Below, in pieces: positions 33,160 through 64,000 of a stretch of DNA of 64,000 nucleotides (position 1 is its first letter; each line of letters opens with the position of its first letter). The stretch is from Sporobolomyces roseus (Eukaryota; Basidiomycota; Microbotryomycetes; Sporidiobolales; Sporidiobolaceae): the NCBI GenBank assembly GCA_016617785.1, contig JADILM010000002.1:1550001-1614000 (forward strand), in the 5' to 3' direction. The position numbers and the translations under genes are program-made. The notes under the pieces are model-generated. The model worked only from the letters and a program-made list of their open reading frames with translations, did no database searches and had not been told where the DNA came from.

Positions 33160-34603
33160 TCACAAGCTAGCTCCTTTCCCTTCCTTGTCCTTCTCCCTCG
33201 TAGCCTTATCAACGATCCCCCTCAATATAGGTGCGACTTGTTTCCTCGTAGCCCTCGTATTACCCTGCTGCCAAACCCTCCACCTCTCGCTCTCCCCCTC
33301 CCTTTCCCCTTCATTCAACCCTCCATAATTCTTAGCTTCCTTCCACTCTCCCAATTCCAACGTCTCATCTTCTTCCAACAGATCAAACATACCACCCTTC
33401 TCGTTCAATCTAGGATCATTCGAAACGACCCATAATTCTCTCCTATGTTTCCCAAGCTCTCCCGTCTTCTTCTTGATGTGAGTATAAGACGTTAAAACTC
33501 CCAACAACCTCAATTGACGCTCTTTCATATAACTCTTCAAATCCCCCAAAACCCCCTCTACCTCTTGTCCCTCGTCGAATTTATCCAACCAGATATTGAG
33601 ACCTAAAGGAACGGTAGCTAATCCATAAGGTAACGAAGGGAAATCCAAGTATTCTTTGTAATCTCTTCGAAGTAGGTCTCTTCCATTCATCCATGAAACG
33701 TCCTCTTTCAATTTCCCCAAGTGTTTGCTTCGTGAGGTTAAAGAATCGAGGGTTTCTTGAGATAGAGTCGAGATTTCGTCATCGGAGGAGGAGGGTGACA
33801 CTGATCGGGAGAAAGAAGAGTGTGGTAGGAGGAGTGAGAGGGAGGATAAGTCTGTGGGAGTAGCTTTGCCTCCTTCTGAGAGGGGTTTCAATCGGGTGTC
33901 GATTAATAAAGCGGCGATTAAGAGGTCTGCTAATCCTCTATCGATTGATTTCGTCGAGTTTGAATTTGGAGACCAGGTAGAGGAGAAGGAGGAGAGAAAG
34001 TGGGTGGTAACGAGAGAAGAGCATGATCCGACTAATTCGATCAAACGGGGTTTTGCTGACAAGTGTAAAGATTCGTCGGCGTGATGATCGATCACTCCGA
34101 TCACTCGTTCGTCATCCTCCTTCTTAGAGTGATCTTGTGGGTATAAACGAAACATGGGTAACAAGGAATTGTGGTCGACTAAGACGAAACGGGTCGATTT
34201 GAGGGATTGAGAAATGGGAGATGGGATATCGTCGATGGTGAGGAGGGAGGAAGGGGATAGGGAGGAGAGGCGGAGGGATTCGAGGTTCTCGGGTCGGAGG
34301 TAGAGATCTGAACGTGGGGTTAGTTGGAGGGGAATGTAACGAGAGGAGGATGGAGAGGAAGAGGAAGTTGCGAAAGTCGAATAGGCGATTGAAGAGGCCA
34401 ATGAATCGAGATCTGCTCGAGGGTGGCTAGCATTTGTGAGTTCAGGGAGTTGGGTGAGAGTCTAGAGAGCGTGATTTACCTCCTGCTTCGTTACCCATGA
34501 CTATAATCCAATCTTTCAAGTCTTTTCCGTCTTTCAACTCGGTCAAGAATGCTTCCTTCTTCTCTGCGAGTTGTCCATCGAATGACTGGTTCGTAGTTGA
34601 CAT
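33160..34603 (-). CDS. PPX1: Exopolyphosphatase, DHH phosphoesterase family
   Basis: ATG 34603 (MSTTNQSFDGQLAEKKEAFL) to TGA 33160, two coding exons. Motif I, WIIVMGNEAGDLDSLASSIA, has its DLD motif restored by an intron right after GNEAG. Motif II is FVLVDHNSLLP, and motif III is GVIDHHADE, the DHH signature that binds the metal pair. A DHHA2 C-terminal domain follows (KERQLRLLGVLTSYTHIKKK, RELWVVSND). The order and motif texts resemble yeast Ppx1, which removes terminal phosphates from inorganic polyphosphate in the cytosol and mitochondria. Close relatives include prune-type phosphatases; the GNE-x-x-DLDS opening favours PPX1. Confidence 0.88.
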
Positions 34604-54434: not shown

Positions 54435-54719
54435 CTTGGAGGCGAAAACAGAGAGGGAGTGAAGGGAAGGGAGAGCAAAACAGGAGGGTAGGATCCTCGT
54501 CGAGAATCTCCGAAGTCGACCGCGGATGATCTCAAGTTTTCGCTAGCAGCAAACAAGGAGGAGGAGATAGCGATACAAGTAGTATTGCGGAAGCAAGAGA
54601 GTTTGAGTGATGCTACAACATTATTACAAATTTTTCCATGCTCCGATGTTTCGATCGTCGAGCGGCCCTTGAAAAGCGGAATCTATAGTGAAGGAGGTGA
54701 GAGCAGAGATTGAAGAGTT

Positions 54720-55607
54720 TTAGAAGAGCGTGTCCTGTGAGGTACCGAAGAAAGGGAATCAATATTCTGCTCGTGAAGCTTGTAAGATTCTCGATTCTGT
54801 CTAGAAAACTCACCTCGTCTCGAAGGTATTCTCCGACATCACTATTGACGAGCAAAGAAGGATTAGGATGAAGCTTTGGACAACAGGGAGAGTAGAGGAC
54901 AGTGAAGAGAAACGTACGCTTGATTGAAAACGATGATAGCCGTAGGATCAGTTTTCCTCGTATCGATCGTACTTCTCGCAGTAACACCGAAGCCCTGTAA
55001 GTTGGACAGCTCCCCAGACATCCATTAATTGCTAGCGGTGTAGGAGTAGAGCGTGAACTTACGAGAGGGATATCGTTCATTGAATAAACTACGACTCCTT
55101 GATGTTCCGTGATATCCTCGGTCGTCTTTCCCAGGTGGGCTTTGACGACGTGGTTACCATACAAGAAAGGCATTTCACCATTCGACTTGATCCAAACCTA
55201 CTCCCTCACTCTTCAAATCAGCGAAAAACTCGAGAATTGCGAAGTCGTGTAGCGTACCTTGTGTTTCGCGTACCTCCCCATCAAATCCAAAGCAGTGACA
55301 TGTAACCTAAACTTTTCCGTCTTACTGAATTTACCCAAACAAACTCCCAAACTGATCAAATTGACTCTAGGGACTGAAACTGCTTGACGAATCATCGCTT
55401 CCCGTACATAATAGACTCTGGAACGGTGTAAGCGGAATACGTGGGGGTCCTCTGGGGTGTCTACTAGGTGTACTAGGTTTGAACCGAGGTAGTTTGCGAG
55501 TTTGGAGAAGAGAGTTTTCGTTTCAGTTTCAGTTAGGGGACGCACTGTAGCATTCACAGCAGAGTCAGCTATGGTATGAGAGAGCTGAGCTAGTCACTGG
55601 ACCTACT
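54720..55607 (-). CDS. NIP7: 60S ribosome biogenesis protein NIP7
   Basis: Six exons: 55607 (one base), 55544-55258, 55197-55063, 54994-54918, 54841-54814 and 54734-54720. Total 543 nt, 180 residues, as in yeast. It starts [20 protein letters not shown] and includes [74 protein letters not shown] and [12 protein letters not shown] at the C-terminus. The N-terminal domain plus C-terminal PUA fold match Nip7, needed for 27S pre-rRNA processing. The main exon has no ATG at its start: the initiation codon forms by joining A55607 to TG at 55544-55543 across a 62-nt intron. See findings. Confidence 0.93.
55545..55606 (-). other. Intron splitting the NIP7 start codon (A|TG)
   Basis: Donor GTAGGTCC after the A, branch site AGCTGACT, acceptor GCTACAG before TG. 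Without it, the conserved RPLTE exon has no ATG. Confidence 0.8.
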
Positions 55608-56883
55608 GGCTAGTAAGTGGAGCGAGTGTGAGTTGGAGAAAGATGAGAACAGTTTCTGTGAACTTTTTCAACATTGCAAGTTGAGACATCCTCCTTGGGA
55701 GGAGGAGCCAGTGCCTCCGTGAGTATCGGAGGATCTAGTAAGGAGCTACGTTAAGGGTATCAAAGAGTCCAGCAAACAAAAAAGCAAACAAAAAAGTATC
55801 GACAAAAAAGAGACTCTCTTTCCAACCACCTTGAACCTCGAGCTTGTGATCCTGCATTCCTCCTTGTTCGAGTACCTATCCTCCGAGTCTTAATTCGTCA
55901 ATTCAAGATCGAGAGAAGATTAAAGCAAGAGGAGAACTCACTAGAGCAGAAAGTTGCACAACTTGCGAGATCTGTTTCGACAAACTCTCATCGTTTCGTC
56001 AGCTCTCGTTTTGAGAAACTGTAGCAAGTTGAGACGTACGGGAGGTTTAGGTTGAGTAGAGAGACACTGAGAAATGAGGGACCTGAGACGTTTCGACAGC
56101 TAGAGAGAGACGAACACTCGAATCAGTTGCGAACGAAGAGAAGAAAGAATGGACAATTACTCACAACAAGCGATTGAGATTCACATGGGAACGAATCGAG
56201 AGACACCTCCGGGAGAGAATAGAGACTAGAAAGAAAGAGAGAGAGAGAGTTAGCTCCCGCGTCCCGAGTAAGAGAGAGAAAGGAGGAGGAGTCAGAACTC
56301 ACCATCTCGCTTTCCTCTCGAATGTTGTTAGTTCTTGATGTTGTTCTTGAGACGAATCACCAAGTTTGAGTTGGTATTGGAGAGAAGTGGGAAGTGGAGA
56401 GTGAAGTGGAAAGTGAAGTGAAGGAAAGAGAAAGGAGAAAGAGAGAGAATTTCGGTTTTGCTCGAATCGCTCGCGGGACATCCCCCACAAAGGCTGATGT
56501 CCAACGAGCGAATCGCTCGCTCGCTTAGAGTTACTCCCGTGGACATCTCTTTCTCTCTCTCTCTCTCTCTCATCCTCACACTCAGCAGCAGACCTGCATC
56601 CAACCTAGGCGAATCGATTTTTCTGATTTTACGCCTTCGCAATACTTTGAATTCTCGCGCTACTTTCTCTCGACTCTCAGCCTCTCGCTCGACGTAGTCA
56701 ATACATCTCGCAAGAAGTACCGAGAGAAGGGAACTCGAACTGGTCCGAATCAGCAGATTTTCAGACGTAGTTCGATTTTCCGTTTTCCCTCAAGATGTTT
56801 ATGCAGTGCTGACTCGCTCTCTCGCACTACATCCACTTCGATATCTAGGTCCACTCGAATACTCCCCAGCCTCTCGAATCCTC
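55608..56883. other. 1.3 kb intergenic region with small hairpins and repeats
   Basis: Upstream region of NIP7 and of the C2H2 gene. Near 55688-55735 are two short inverted repeats (TCCTCC..GGAGGA and CCTCC..GGAGG). At about 55772-55797 is a 12-bp tandem repeat AGCAAACAAAAA. Near 56465-56525 is another inverted/direct repeat (GGGACATC..GATGTCC flanked by CGAATCGCTCG). CT runs are abundant. No coding gene supported. Confidence 0.45.
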
Positions 56884-57960
56884 ATGGCTCTCTGTCCCTG
56901 GTCAGCAAGCAGCAACTCGCCTTGTCTAGAGCTTTATCAAAATCCACAAAGTCTATTCGAGCACGTTCACTTCGTTCATCTCCTCAACTCGCCTGAGATC
57001 ATACACTCCTGTCGATGGCCGGGATGCGACGTTGAGTGCGACTCGGTGGAACAGCTTCTCCAACACTTCGACGAACACAGTTTTTCGCGACTGGTCGCCC
57101 TCCAGCAACGCATAAGCTCTCACCACTCTTCCTTCACCCTACCTCACTCTTCTTCCCTCTCTCCCGCTCCTTCAGTCCCTCTCAGCGGTGCCGACACTTC
57201 GTCTTCATCATCCTTTTCGCAACTCAATAACCACCTTTACTCGTACTCAACTTCAACCTTTCCTCTCCATCCTCCGCCAGATTACGCCTTCTTTCCCTCT
57301 TACCAGCCATCTCCTGCCTCCCCTCATCCCCCTCTTCCTCCTCAGTTGTCGAACCCAAGTTATTCGATTCCTCCGGTTCGAAATGCCGCTTTCCCTCCGA
57401 TCCATCTCTCACCGTTCGCCCTTCCTTTCGCTCCTCAAGCATTAACATCGACGAGATCGGCGACTGGAGGAGGAACTACCTACCATCAGTGTCGATGGAA
57501 CGACGACGACGGATGTACTCAAGAGTGCGAAACTCTCGAGCAACTCTTCATACACCTCGAAGCAGTTCATCTCGTTCGTCGCTTCGAGTACGAATCGAAG
57601 TGGAGATGCGGATGGGAGAAGTGTCAGAGTAAATTCGAAACTGTTCAACACCTGATCGACCACCTCGCTTTCACTCATCTGGAGCTGTTCCTTCACGTCT
57701 GCAACGACTGCCTCCCTCCGAAGCAATTTCCTCGATCTGCTGGACTCGAGAAGCATCGTAGAAACGTCCACGAACCTTCATCGTCCTCGATTCAACCTCC
57801 TCCTTCGCTCGAACAATCTTTTACTCTTCCCTCCGCAACCCTCGCCATTCCTCCAGTCCCGTACTACGCGATGCCGTCTCAAGCTGGACCTATCCCTGCT
57901 GGGTCTCGTCACCGGACGTTCCCTCTCATTTCTCCGCGAGGATTCTACTCTCCTCGATGA
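56884..57960 (+). CDS. C2H2 zinc-finger protein
   Basis: ATG 56884 (MALCPWSASSNSPCLELYQ) to TGA 57958-57960, single exon, 358 residues. Zinc-finger-like units seen: CRWPGCDVECDSVEQLLQHF then DEHSF; CRWNDDDGCTQECETLEQLF then IHLEAVH; CGWEKCQSKFETVQHLIDHL then AFTHLE; and CNDCLPPKQFPRSAGLEKHR then RNVH. These are the spaced-out C-W-x-x-C type fingers found in GLI/ZIC-like and many fungal transcription factors. A Pro/Ser-rich linker separates finger one from the rest. The first in-frame ATG after an upstream stop was chosen. It converges on the Fanzor-like gene with 185 bp between stop codons. Confidence 0.75.
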   Translation: MALCPWSASSNSPCLELYQNPQSLFEHVHFVHLLNSPEIIHSCRWPGCDVECDSVEQLLQHFDEHSFSRLVALQQRISSHHSSFTLPHSSSLSPAPSVPLSGADTSSSSSFSQLNNHLYSYSTSTFPLHPPPDYAFFPSYQPSPASPHPPLPPQLSNPSYSIPPVRNAAFPPIHLSPFALPFAPQALTSTRSATGGGTTYHQCRWNDDDGCTQECETLEQLFIHLEAVHLVRRFEYESKWRCGWEKCQSKFETVQHLIDHLAFTHLELFLHVCNDCLPPKQFPRSAGLEKHRRNVHEPSSSSIQPPPSLEQSFTLPSATLAIPPVPYYAMPSQAGPIPAGSRHRTFPLISPRGFYSPR

Positions 57961-58145: not shown

Positions 58146-61100
58146 CTACTCAATCTCCTCGTCATCTCCGACCAAGAAGTCCTCGTCAAGTTCCATAAGT
58201 GCAACGGCAGTCATCTCGAGGAGAGTAATCAAAGAATCACCCTCCTTAAGCTCCAACAACCTTTGCCTCCTTGCTTCCTCTGAGAGTGGACTAAGATGTT
58301 TCCGAAGTTGATGTTCCAACCTTGTGATCTGATGTTTCTCACCGCGGAACTTGTTTCCGGAGAGCTTGGCGTTGTCGGGAGAGAGAATGTTCCCTCGGAC
58401 GCCTCGACCTCGAGCAAGAGCCATCCTTGCGATGTTCGCTGCCGCGTTGTCGTCTCGATGTCCGAGCTCGAAGCATCGAATGCAGACCACCAAGCGGAGG
58501 TTGAAGGAGTTGAGCGAGTCGCCGAGTCGACTTGGGTGGACGAGACTGTCGTTCGAGGAAAGGGAGTGAGCAAAGTCAGTATCTCGCTTTTGAGTTGTTG
58601 AGAGCAGAAGAGAAGATTTGGTTGAACGTACGCTCCACCACAACAAGGTTTCGAACAGACTTGCGACGAATACGCTTCACTCGATCGAAGCAACAACAGA
58701 TTCACCCACGAGAACCCTCTCAAAACTCGTATCATCGAATCTTCCTGTTCCTTCTCGTTGCGAGCTCCGTACCCAGCACCACCAGTGATTCCGTCGTAAG
58801 AGGTAATCAAAGTAAGTTCGATCTTGCTCCCATCGGAAGGTGGAGGTAGAGCATCCTTCCATTGTCGAGCGGTTTGCTGGTCCAATCTCGCTCGACGACG
58901 TTCCTGCTCCACAAGATTACGTTTCGATCCGAGATAGTCTTCGACGTGGAGAAGGGAGGGTTGAAGGGTCGGAGGAAGGTGAAGTCGAAGGGATTCGAAG
59001 TCTACGAGAGAATCGACCCGAGAGGGATCGACGCTGAGACGAGCGAGGAGGGAGATGATATCGTTTGAGGTAGATCCAATACGATCTAGAGCACGGGCGC
59101 ACGAGAGTCAGCTCCAATCGTCATCGTGAAGAGAAGATGTCGAAACTCACCTTGTAGTCCTTTGACGAATCTCCCACGAGCGTCCAGCGGTAGCAAAGCA
59201 GTTCGACGCGCTTTCGCTCGACGCTCTTGCTTCTTCTTCTGACCAGACGAGATCCGAAAGAACTTGATAGGCCCTTGAGGCGAGATGAGGATTGAATCGA
59301 CTGAAATTCGACGACCAAGATCGTTCGCGATCAGATATCCTCGCTTTTTGGGAGCGATAGCGTCGGTCGAGGGAGGAAGAGAAGATTGATCGAGAGAAGC
59401 CGGAGGTGGCGCGGAACGAGGAGGTTGAGATTGAGAGGTCGAACCTATCGCAGACGAGCTCGTTACTCGATGATCTGCTTGGAACGGTGGAGGAAGGGCT
59501 GCAGCTGAAGAAGTATCACTGGTGTTGCGATTCCCTTGGCCGGAAGAGTCGAAAAGGAACGAAGAAGGGGGGAGAGAGGTGGAAGACGATTCGGTAGCTG
59601 TGCGAGAAGGTCGATGAGCGGGAGTGTGAGGTCGAGAAGGAGGCGGGGAAGGACGAGGTTCGAAGAGCGGGTCCAAGACGTGAGCGAGTCCAGGATACGA
59701 AGGATCCGAGTTGACGTTCGCCAAGATCCAGCTTCCCCAAATTTCGAGTACCCTTTGTCCAGTTGGCGTGACGATATCCTTGAAGGGGAGATAGAGCCCT
59801 CGTCGATCGTCTAGAACAGGAGGAGATACTTTGTCGCGAGGAGAACGTTCGAGACGGAGAACAGTTTTCGACCCTTCTCGTTGCGTCCTGAGAATCGAGA
59901 AGAGGTCGTCGATCTTTGCCTCTTCGACTGAACCTTTCTGTGCTCGAGAAGGTGGAGGAACTTGATGCACTCCCGTCCCTGGTTGAGTGATTTCGCTGAA
60001 GCCAACAGCAGGACGTCGCTCCTTTCCCGCGGAGTTGAGGGTTTCGAGTTTCCGGTAGACAGCGAGCATCTTGGGGTGTTCCGAAGCGAGGATCTCGAGA
60101 ACAGTTGTCCATGGCTTTCCTTCGATTCGACCTGAGCAGAAGGGTCCGTATCAGTCTCGCGAACACTGGAAAAGAGAAGCGAGAGAACGGACCTTGATAC
60201 TTGTTCCATCCTTTTTTCGTGAACAGACGGGGATCGTACACCAACGGGATGACTTCGAAGCGATTGAAGTAAAAGTTACCGTGGTAGAGTCTGTGACCGA
60301 TGGGAGGCTTGAACCACCAGTTGAGCGCTTCGTGGGGAACTTGAGTCAAATCTTCAGCTGTCAGACCGAGATTATTGAAGAACGCTTCGATCGTTCGTGA
60401 CTGAGCTTGTGCGGTTGCGAATCCGTTCTGAGTGAGTCGGACAACTCGGAAAGGACCAGATGAAGGCTCCTCCTGGAATTCGAGGTGGGGAAAGTGGTCT
60501 TTGGCGGCGAGAAGGATCTTGTCGGGGTGCTCAGCTTGCAGCTTCACAAAGGAGTCCTCCTCCTTCCACTTGCGAACCTCCTCGTACGTGTGTCGTGCTG
60601 GCTCTCGTTGCGGAAGCGAAGTGGTCGGAGGAATTTCGAAAGGAGGGAATCGAACGTTTCGGAGAGAATTGTTCGCGACGAGAGAATCAACGGCGAGACG
60701 ATCGGTGAGCTTCAAGATCATGGTCGGAAGATAATCGGGTGGGTCGCGAGCCGTTGATACCCTAGGAGGCGTATTCGTGAGCGAGCGAAGGATCGGCATG
60801 TTCGTGTCGCATCCTCTTGGTTGGAAGTTCTATCAAGCGAGGCACCCACAGTAAGTACAAGCTACGAGGAGTATACGAGGCAGGGAGGATGACTCACGAA
60901 GAAGGTCTTGCTGAAGAACGGGAGTACTCCTAAAACGATCGACCTCAACACCTTTTTCGCACTCGATTTCTTCGCATCCTCATCCTCTTCTTCCTCTGCT
61001 TCTTCATACTCTTCTCCCTCAGGTTCTTTCCTCCCGATGTCGAAGAAATCGTCCTTCTTCCTAAACTTGACTTCTTTCCCTCCTCCTCCCATGACCATAT

Positions 61101-63938
61101 CTCCAATTCGTCTACAGTTGACTCCGTTCAACTTGATCCAACGAGTTGCCTCGACAAACGACATACCGACATGCTTGATCAGGAAGTCGACCGAAGTAAC
61201 GAGGAGTTTGGCGAGAGCTTTGGCGGCTTGTGAGATTGAAGTCGAATCGTGATAAGTGTTCTTCTTGAGGGCAGCATCACTGATGATTTTTGCGATTCGA
61301 TCCTCCAATCCCTTCTCCAACTCCGACGCATCCATCGCGATATCTTCATCGTCTTCTTCATCGTCCTCATCATCACCATAATCCGAACTTTCTTCTTCTT
61401 CCCAATCCATCCGAGTCTCCCCGTCCTCTTTCAACAAATCTTCCAAGTTGAACATCTCTACATCCTCATCGTCTGTCGAATCTGAATCCGTAGCATCGGT
61501 GGAAGGTTCGGCAGGTCCTTGATGTTCGAATGGAGATGGTTTTGGAAGGGGAGCCGAGAAGAATCGGAGTCGAAGTAACCTTTTGACGGATTTCGCCTGA
61601 GTGAGGGGTACAAGATCTTGAAGGACTTCGTCGGAGAGATTCGAGAGGGTGGTAGAAGCGTTCGAAACGTCCAAAGTCGAGATGTTGTAACGATTCAGAG
61701 GGATTCGACTTGAGAAGTCGAGGAGAGAGGAGGTGAGGTTACTGGAGAGGAAACTTGCGAGTGAGCGACCACGAGCGTCGGAAGCGTTCATCAATCCCGT
61801 TCCAGCCGTGGTGTAGTTGAGAGAGATGAAATCGTTGTTGGTGAGGATGGGAGGAGGGAAACGAAGACGACGACGTTCCTTGAGAACCATCGCTCCAACC
61901 AAGTCGAACTGTAGTCGAGTACTCAGTACTGGTCAGTATAGAGGAGACGGTGAAGGATGAGAACTGAACATACGGTTGTGCTCGAGTACTTGAATTCTCC
62001 TTCGACAAAGCGGTATTCGGCGACTAGCTGTCGGAAGCTGGCGTGGAGATGAAGAGGAACCGACACGAGGAATTCTACAACTCGATCTTCGAGCCACTGT
62101 GGGAACCGGGAGGGATTGTGAGGGGGAATCGATTGAGGGAGAGGGTCGGGTTGATGCGTCGGCGGAAGCGGATGCTTGCGGTAGTAAATCTTGCACTCGA
62201 GTACGACAGCAGCGACGAAGGTCCCGAAGTTTCGAGGATTCGATCCACGCTCGACGAGACGGTAAGGTGAGAATTGCCAGTGAAGCGAGAGAATTCCGTT
62301 TATCGTTTCGTTGATAGCAGGTGATTCGTTGAGCCAGACGTTCAGCAAAGAATTGAGCACGTTGACCAAATTGTGGTGAAAGTGGTGACCTTCCGGAATA
62401 CCTTTGAGAGCGCACAAGTCAGTGTCGAGAGCGATAAAATGATCAGAAAGTAGGAGGCTCACCGGGGAAGAGTAGATTTCGAATAGTAGCGTCTTTGAGC
62501 GGTAACGGGACTGCTGAGAGTGCATAGTCGAATTTCTTGATACCGTGTCCTTCTCGTAGAGCGCTCGAAGGTCCGTCGTCGTCTGGTTTCGATTTCGTCG
62601 GTTGTTTCTTCTTCTGCTTCGGAGGAGCTTTGACGGGAGGGAGAGGGGCCATCGTTTGACTCTGAGTGGTGATGAGTTCTTCGGCGGTCTTCTTCTCCTC
62701 TTGCCAGAAAGTACGAGAATCGGGTCCATTCTTGACGAGGTGATAGTTGAGTTGCAAGTTTGGAGGAGGTAGACGTCTGTTCTCTCTCGGTGTAGTCGAT
62801 TGTCGGATCAACGAGCTGAACGGGTGGTTGTGCATTCCTTTGCGTCGGTAGATATCGTTCAGTTGTCGATTCGTTTCCTTTTCCACCCGTTCTTCCGCCG
62901 CTTTCCTCCAAAGCTGCTTGTCGACCACTTCGTATTGATCGGTGAAGAGTCCAAGGAAAGTCGAGAGGAATAGTTGAAGGGAGAATTTGAATTCGGAAAC
63001 CTTGTCAGTGGGAAGGAATGTCTTGAACCACTCGTAAAGGTGTTGCTCGAAACCTCTGATATCGACTTTGACTTGCTGCTGGTCGACCATGATCGTCGTC
63101 GTGCCGCCTGGGATTCGAACCTCCTCGTACATTTCGAAGAATCTGACGTAGGAGTTGCAGAAGTCGAGGAGGACGAATTCTTGAGATTGTTTCGGCGTCC
63201 TTTTGTCGACTTCACGACCGGATCGAGCGATACCAGCAACCGTGTATCCGTAGAGACCATCGGTTTCGTCACATCCGGCAACGACCATCGCGATAGTTTG
63301 TGCGATTCTGTCGATGTAACCCCAGTCCGAAGAATGGTTGAATCGTTTCCTGAGATCGGTCGCTCGAGATGGGTGCGAGGAGGAGAGGCCGAGGATGTGG
63401 GATGCTGACCATTGGTCATTGAGACCTTGGTGGTCCGAGTCGGTTCCGACGATGAGCGAGAGATTCGGGAAGGGGGTATGAAGGAGGGACTCGATATCGG
63501 CGGCAGTAGGGAGCTTCGCGTGAGTAGGAGTCGCAGGGTTGATAGACGAGGAGGAGGAAGGAGGATGAGAAGAAGAAGGATGAACGGAAGAGGATTGCTG
63601 ATTCGAGGAGGAGTGCGAAGGAAGAGGAGACGGTTTCGAAGAAGGTGCTTGATACGAGTGGACGGGATAATTCGGGTGAGGGTATCGGCCTAGACTTGCA
63701 TCGCGACATACTGAATCGGCTTCACTTCGGGAAACTATCTGAATTGACCTTTGGTGGAGTTTCGTCGCTTTACGATGAATAAGCACTTGCAGAGGAGTAG
63801 GGTTGTTCGGTAGGCGCTACAGCAGGTACAGGATCAGTCTACGACGTCGATCACTCCGCGATAAGAGGTTGAGAAACGTACAAGCTCTTCTGGAGTAGTA
63901 GGAGAGAAAGCAGGGAATCGCGATTCCTCCTTTTGCAT
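58146..63938 (-). CDS. Giant Fanzor-like protein (eukaryotic TnpB/OMEGA nuclease family)
   Basis: Eight exons: 63938-63882, 63816-62463, 62401-61974, 61908-60898, 60829-60193, 60131-59151, 59085-58632 and 58545-58146. Total 5,322 nt, 1,773 residues; the frame is also open upstream to the window edge, so the start may lie beyond 64000. The C-terminal quarter has the TnpB/Fanzor signature. A RuvC-I-like strand KRGYLIANDLGRRISVDSI has Asp about 1433. SYDGITGGAGYGARN is followed by LRSSEAYSSQVCSKPCCGG, where Glu about 1626 is at the alternative RuvC-II position. The zinc ribbon is completed by VVCIRCFELGH, and RuvC-III is HRDDNAAANIARMAL with Asp about 1672. Upstream are about 1,400 residues: a Ser-rich start, helical regions, an acidic block around 745-800 and a Pro/Ser-rich linker before RuvC-I. 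Such a long N-terminal part is unusual for the family. RNA-guided cleavage is known for some Fanzors; activity here is not shown. Confidence 0.8.
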
Positions 63939-64000
63939 GTCGATCTCTGGATCACCCGCTGGGTCAGTACAACGAATGAAGTTGAACGAGCAAGAGAGAA

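Follow-up and report, generated by a model that had tools for sequence, protein, structure and literature searches.

TnpB and Fanzor nucleases are described as sharing the motif D-X(125,275)-[TS][TS]XX-C4 ribbon-X(5,50)-RD in the accessible part of PMC3627910, and the accessible part of PMC10711439 adds that Fanzors carry an alternative Glu six residues ahead of the zinc finger and that DPG at RuvC-I is near exclusive to them. We analyzed a stretch of 64,000 nucleotides (nt), C2:1550001-1614000 of a Sporobolomyces assembly (GCA_016617785.1; 22.4 Mb in 15 contigs), hereafter the window, whose right-hand end holds most of a giant, intron-rich gene that an earlier annotation made from the letters alone, hereafter the original prediction, had called Fanzor-like. 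Our results suggest, with a probability of roughly 70%, that this gene belongs to an intron-rich Fanzor-lineage family of about 2,000 amino acids (aa), in which the C-terminal 350 aa form a TnpB/Fanzor RuvC core, fused to a putative 5'-nuclease of FEN1/XPG type at the N-terminus. Overall, we regard the product as a Fanzor variant and putative dual nuclease, encoded in a possibly mobile segment.

Protein searches at E 0.01 or better returned eight proteins in total, five of them full-length relatives of 1,965-2,235 aa (P0001, P0003 and P0004 from S. pararoseus, P0002 and P0005 from S. roseus) and three (P0006-P0008, 1,388-1,401 aa) aligning with P0001 across 180-256 aa only; these searches need shared five-residue words, with ~8,000 candidates scored each, and do not thereby show the family to be confined to Sporobolomyces. 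The genome contains four loci, namely the window gene, a copy on contig C7 whose protein is 97% identical, and two divergent paralogs, at about 1048.6-1055.6 kb on C3 (first seen at E 2e-4) and at about 2259.9-2267 kb on C2 (C2b, first seen at E 0.08). The comparisons below use eight distinct proteins (window gene, C3, C2b and the five database relatives), or nine including the C7 copy. A tree of the eight revealed two fully supported clades, about 19% identical across, the first comprising the window gene, P0001, P0003, P0004 and P0005, and the second C3, C2b and P0002. Among viral contigs, 13 pattern matches were obtained, none of which was confirmed.

The C-terminal core extends over 58420..59331 on the minus strand and is split by introns at 59086-59150 and 58546-58631. 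All motifs listed in the original prediction were found in the stated order on that strand: the RuvC-I Asp (residue 1433 in its frame, 1651 in our full model), SEAYSSQVC, the ribbon cysteines in CSKPC and CIRC, and HRDDNAAANIA. Its call of a Fanzor-type RuvC/zinc-ribbon core with a relocated Glu likewise held, as the profile search of the C-terminus that it had proposed returned Pfam PF07282 (TNB, the TnpB/Cas12f ribbon) at 27.1 bits and E 4.6e-6, above the cut-off of 26.3. In a profile scan of the five database relatives, PF07282 was also above cut-off in P0001, P0003 and P0004, slightly below it in P0005 (25.2) and not found in P0002, and a search of the six-frame translation of the genome gave no match at E 0.001; the likely reason is that the domain is interrupted by an intron. 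The full C4 Fanzor motif was present in six of nine proteins (the window copy, the C7 copy, P0001, P0003, P0004 and P0005), the remaining three (C3, C2b and P0002) fitting it only in a three-Cys form, and its ribbon-to-RD tail was reproduced by none of 3000 residue shuffles. All nine proteins carry the alternative Glu six residues upstream of the first ribbon Cys, three (C2b, P0004 and P0005) have DPG at RuvC-I, and the RuvC D-E-D triad (D1651, E1844, D1890) is invariant in all eight distinct proteins. Alignment by VIA-align with the low-confidence RuvC model of P0001 (pLDDT 51) placed Cas12, TnpB or TranC in 12 of the 15 top rows. Judged from these motifs, the C-terminus is very probably a Fanzor-like RuvC core and a putative nuclease. 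The clade of C3, C2b and P0002 is without the fourth zinc-ribbon Cys, yet has retained both D-E-D and the alternative Glu.

The region that sets the family apart lies at the other end of the protein, where D98, D162, E269, D363, D365 and D420, all within the N-terminal 430 residues, are invariant in the eight distinct proteins; across the whole alignment 62 columns share this property, including these six acids and the RuvC D-E-D. Within the window the region covers 63210..63816 of the minus strand, D98 and D162 being encoded in exon 2 beyond its edge. The contexts in the window copy (VLDVSN, IYDH, SEAD, TDSD and AGCD..GL.G) follow the order of the FEN1/XPG nuclease motifs, as seen by comparison with XPG-type genes of the same genome and with human XPG and FEN1 sequences, and we take the six acids to correspond to D34, D86, E158, D179, D181 and D233 in FEN1 numbering. 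Some members have XPG-style N-termini, an example being MAIRGLNKFL in C2b. When the XPG_I profile was compared with seven stretches of the family, only residues 235-500 scored above chance (z 11.7; 0 of 60 shuffles, and 0 of 200 in a repeat), the other six being equalled by 6 to 58 of 60 shuffles. Moreover, an ordered chain of five FEN1 blocks run against the whole protein started at residues 91, 155, 266, 356 and 412, a result reached by 0 of 1000 shuffles, with its motif acids landing on the invariant acids. Omission of the strongest block left a four-block chain in residues 1-411 that 7 of 1000 shuffles matched, and the five blocks placed in residues 500-1991 were matched by 527 of 1000. 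Together, these comparisons suggest that the additional N-terminus is FEN1-like and probably constitutes a putative second nuclease domain throughout the family. A large extra N-terminal region had been predicted, and its presence was confirmed; its proposed acquisition by this copy was not, the region being found in all eight distinct members. The proposed profile search of this region yielded the XPG_I signal in 235-500 and no Pfam XPG match, and the structure search relied on a model too poor for its outcome to count.

The gene itself occupies the minus strand, which the original prediction had left unstated, with 10 exons, totals 5,976 nt including the stop and encodes 1,991 aa; its in-window part is 58146..64000, with the stop at 58146 and the ATG at window-coordinate 64727, on contig C2 beyond the window. 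Candidate GT-AG introns were enumerated around each shift of reading frame and ranked by their fit to the consensus. The seven introns thus obtained in the window measure 65, 61, 65, 68, 61, 65 and 86 nt, other GT-AG choices being possible at most of them, and agree with the seven spliceosomal introns of 61-86 nt and the exon sum divisible by three (5,322 nt, 1,773 codons plus stop) of the original prediction. Its giant size was correct, its length of about 1,773 residues was 218 short, and the ATG at 63938 is internal and not the gene start. Two more upstream exons, joined in frame, and two further introns lie wholly or partly past the window edge; these introns measure 74 and 61 nt, with GTGAG donors and AG acceptors. 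The exons are, in order, exon 1 (64727-64454) and exon 2 (64379-64020; D98 at 64360-64362 and D162 at 64168-64170), both beyond the window; exon 3 (63882..63958; residues about 212-237); exon 4 (62463..63816), with the FEN1-like motif residues E269 (63721-63723), D363 (63439-63441), D365 (63433-63435) and D420 (63268-63270); exons 5 (61974..62401), 6 (60898..61908, with an acidic low-complexity tract) and 7 (60193..60829, conserved), which encode the middle region; exon 8 (59151..60131), with the RuvC-I Asp D1651 at 59320-59322; exon 9 (58632..59085), with the conserved G1814, the alternative Glu E1844 at 58676-58678 and ribbon residues C1851 and C1856; and exon 10 (58146..58545), with ribbon residues C1880 and C1883 and the RuvC-III D1890 at 58452-58454. 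A homology-blind predictor, trained on the codon usage of the window gene itself, recovered the same seven introns, and also put an extra intron into exon 4 and chose a different start and a different second intron upstream. The protein start in our model, MTLTGLHRATDAAAKRN, is similar to MGLSGCQQAIDKQQAQN of P0003 and MGIPGHGQAIDKQQEKN of P0004, and the whole layout recurs in the five database gene models, P0005 being without the first about 90 residues. The giant gene almost certainly encodes one long protein.

For C3 and C2b, the same predictor supplied the intron sites, after trimming of the introns and exons it had added at the gene ends and removal by hand of one internal C2b intron. With positions and not phases compared, 8 of 9 sites in C3 were no more than 3 residues away from one in the window gene (5 exact), and 7 of 9 in C2b no more than 2 residues away (4 exact). 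This sharing across the clades implies that most introns are older than the clade split, and it serves as a check on the splice model. Because most intron sites are common to two clades at about 19% identity, the gene is, on this comparison, a long-standing resident of the nuclear genome, in agreement with the long residence originally predicted. In P0001, residues 1618-1844 include a stretch of about 207-228 aa with 85-92% identity to a portion of P0006 from the same strain, a protein with a weak, sub-threshold Chromo domain match; lying directly ahead of the RuvC part, this stretch has the appearance of host coding sequence captured recently.

The window gene lies in a segment of 10,811 bp that runs from 55669 through 64000 and on to window-coordinate 66479, and that is duplicated, in reverse orientation, as 10,801 bp at C7:1209809-1220609. 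The two copies are 96% identical overall and about 98% across the gene, with sharp ends (CAACATTG... and ...GGGTGTG), unrelated flanks, and TT and AG as candidate 2-bp target duplications; neither end has a full-length match elsewhere. Both giant genes are open, with a silent divergence (dS) of 0.036, a replacement divergence (dN) of 0.013 and a pairwise dN/dS of 0.37, the excess of silent changes giving P 5e-7 in a simple binomial test. Their nine introns differ at 15 of 606 nt, and the retention of introns in both copies argues for copying as DNA. We lean towards recent DNA-level mobility of the segment. A companion gene of 358 aa on the plus strand (56884..57960), present only in the two segment copies, is zinc-finger-like; Pfam FOXP-CC is over cut-off, and the C2H2 assignment is our own reading. 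At the left end (55669..55768, minus strand) lies a tentative candidate for an omega-RNA-like end, the last about 65 nt forming two hairpins in both copies; against base shuffles these gave z -2.8 and -2.6 at 100 nt and -1.7 to -0.5 at 150-200 nt, and a guide-RNA scaffold at this end is a guess.

Several results weigh against the combination of Fanzor core, FEN1-like domain and mobile segment. At the segment ends, a search for terminal inverted repeats found only short matches of chance size, and no transposase was recognized in the segment. The absence of such repeats and a target duplication that is only possible (TT / AG), along with the ancient introns held in common, the low dN/dS and the single-copy state of C3 and C2b, would fit a host family with a cellular job, that is, a domesticated dual nuclease whose C7 copy arose by segmental duplication and not by transposition. 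This explanation seems rather unlikely given the sharp ends and unrelated flanks, a second gene seen only in the two segment copies, and the fact that even the most similar pair in comparisons of this genome with S. roseus and S. pararoseus (C3 with P0002) is only 38% identical, with no close ortholog found. Of the two outcomes offered by the original prediction, domestication or a new fused subtype, the fused subtype is retained, whereas domestication without mobility is not supported as the whole story in view of the sharply bounded 10.8-kb segment with its second copy on C7.

A different objection concerns the N-terminus. The significant XPG_I alignment spans only 16 columns, residues 415-430 around D420, and hhalign against an XPG_I profile gave E 7e-4 over 17 columns at 27% probability, with 2 of 200 shuffles scoring higher at odd scores of 136-138. 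The FEN1 blocks were picked after the motifs had been seen; singly, N1, N2 and B were not significant and A was borderline (p 0.07), A and B alone in residues 1-411 were matched by 31 of 1000 shuffles, and the four blocks without the strongest, when run against the whole protein, put B wrongly at 1056 and were matched by 216 of 1000. The XPG_N profile against residues 1-235 gave noise (2 of 40 shuffles, as for 1100-1400), Pfam XPG_N and XPG_I had no match up to E 5 in the 1,773-aa frame and none up to E 10 in the scanned relatives, and of the nine XPG_I and ten XPG_N genome matches to E 10 none lay on the giant genes; the region is therefore termed FEN1-like and not a FEN1/XPG member. The AlphaFold model of P0001 residues 1-524 has a pLDDT of 45.5, and a fold search with it lists no FEN1, the model being too poor for this to count; when the N-terminal profile A1 was searched against PDB sequences, seven were returned to E 10, no FEN1 among them and a proteasome subunit as the best at E 0.031. 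On the C-terminal side, the predicted RuvC model of P0001 reaches a pLDDT of 51 and a best Foldseek E of 0.098, and RuvC-I reads DLG and not DPG in the window and C7 copies, so that we assign the window gene to the TnpB superfamily as a Fanzor-like variant and not as a canonical Fanzor1. The unmatched Pfam profiles, the unusable model and the single weakness of all FEN1 blocks except C would be expected if the gene were a giant Fanzor in which the first 1,400 residues consist of nothing but linkers and REC/WED expansions specific to this lineage, with structural acids and a chance or convergent likeness to FEN1; Fanzor N-terminal regions are highly variable according to the accessible part of PMC3627910. 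We nevertheless judge this distinctly unlikely, in view of six acids in FEN1 order that stay invariant in eight of eight proteins despite about 19% inter-clade identity, a chain found in 0 of 1000 shuffles and an XPG_I match confined to one of seven stretches. A false fusion of two adjacent genes by the splice model is highly improbable and was rejected, since five database models of 1,965-2,235 aa and three loci agree in the whole layout and the intron places are near-identical.

Assuming a FEN1-like domain fused to a Fanzor core, the C-terminal core would, by analogy with the Fanzor family, make an RNA-guided double-strand cut, the N-terminal domain would then trim at the same cut, acting on 5' ends, on flaps or on the displaced strand, and such trimming would favour repair that copies the element in from another locus. 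We tentatively propose such cut-and-trim copying, in which a mobile element would employ a single-chain RNA-guided dual nuclease whose FEN1-type part processes the ends of the Fanzor cut, at somewhat less than even odds. If true, nature has fused a programmable DNA cutter with an end-processing nuclease in a single chain, which would open a direct way to study how Fanzors serve their elements and supply a natural model for cut-and-resect editors. The locus also suggests that Fanzor-lineage genes persist for long as intron-rich nuclear genes, yet still in discrete duplicated segments.

Further observations concern the segment and its surroundings. Over window positions 56001-57000 the two copies are about 76-94% identical in 250-base steps, compared with about 98% over the gene, and the C7 copy of the companion gene (C7:1218301-1219384) is split between two frames next to an open giant gene. 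A query with the right end also matched C7 in part at three places near 962-963 kb. Here 281 bp, at window-coordinates about 65554-65834, are 79% identical to a place near 963 kb, flanked by two 59-bp matches, and may be sequence shared with another locus. Near the left end, positions 54613-55173 on the minus strand encode a UPF0113 PUA domain, the gene presumably serving ribosome biogenesis, and an open reading frame at 33163-34401 has a DHHA2 domain that passes the cut-off along with a sub-threshold DHH match.

No fusion of Fanzor with FEN1/XPG was found in the literature, including the accessible parts of PMC10432273, PMC3627910, PMC10711439 and PMC11423790, a partial coverage that is no proof that none is in print. 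The giant family resembles the FEN1, XPG, EXO1 and GEN1 5' nucleases in the order of acidic motifs, the MG-x-x-GL-type start of several members and GcD..gl.G, and differs from them by a long E-to-DxD insert, the absence of a Pfam-level match and its setting inside a Fanzor. With ISDra2 TnpB (PDB 8h1j, with 8bf8 scoring equally) it shares an alignment from ribbon to RuvC-III, at only E 0.7, whereas that protein is bacterial, has 408-410 aa and is without the N-terminal extension. Likeness to Fanzor1 of Spizellomyces punctatus (SPu-1-1p / SpuFz1) comprises the RuvC D-E-D with the alternative Glu, the zinc ribbon, the long motif and the location in a discrete, mobile-looking segment; unlike Fanzor1, the giant family has a FEN1-like N-terminus, DLG at RuvC-I (in this copy), a three-Cys clade and ends without inverted repeats, and its 1,965-2,235 aa compare with 633 aa for SPu-1-1p in the accessible part of PMC3627910. 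Like the FRI-bearing PpFz1 of Parasitella parasitica, as described in the accessible part of PMC11423790, the family combines a Fanzor with an added domain; FRI, however, is a small cyclophilin-binding insertion, whereas the addition described here is a putative N-terminal nuclease.

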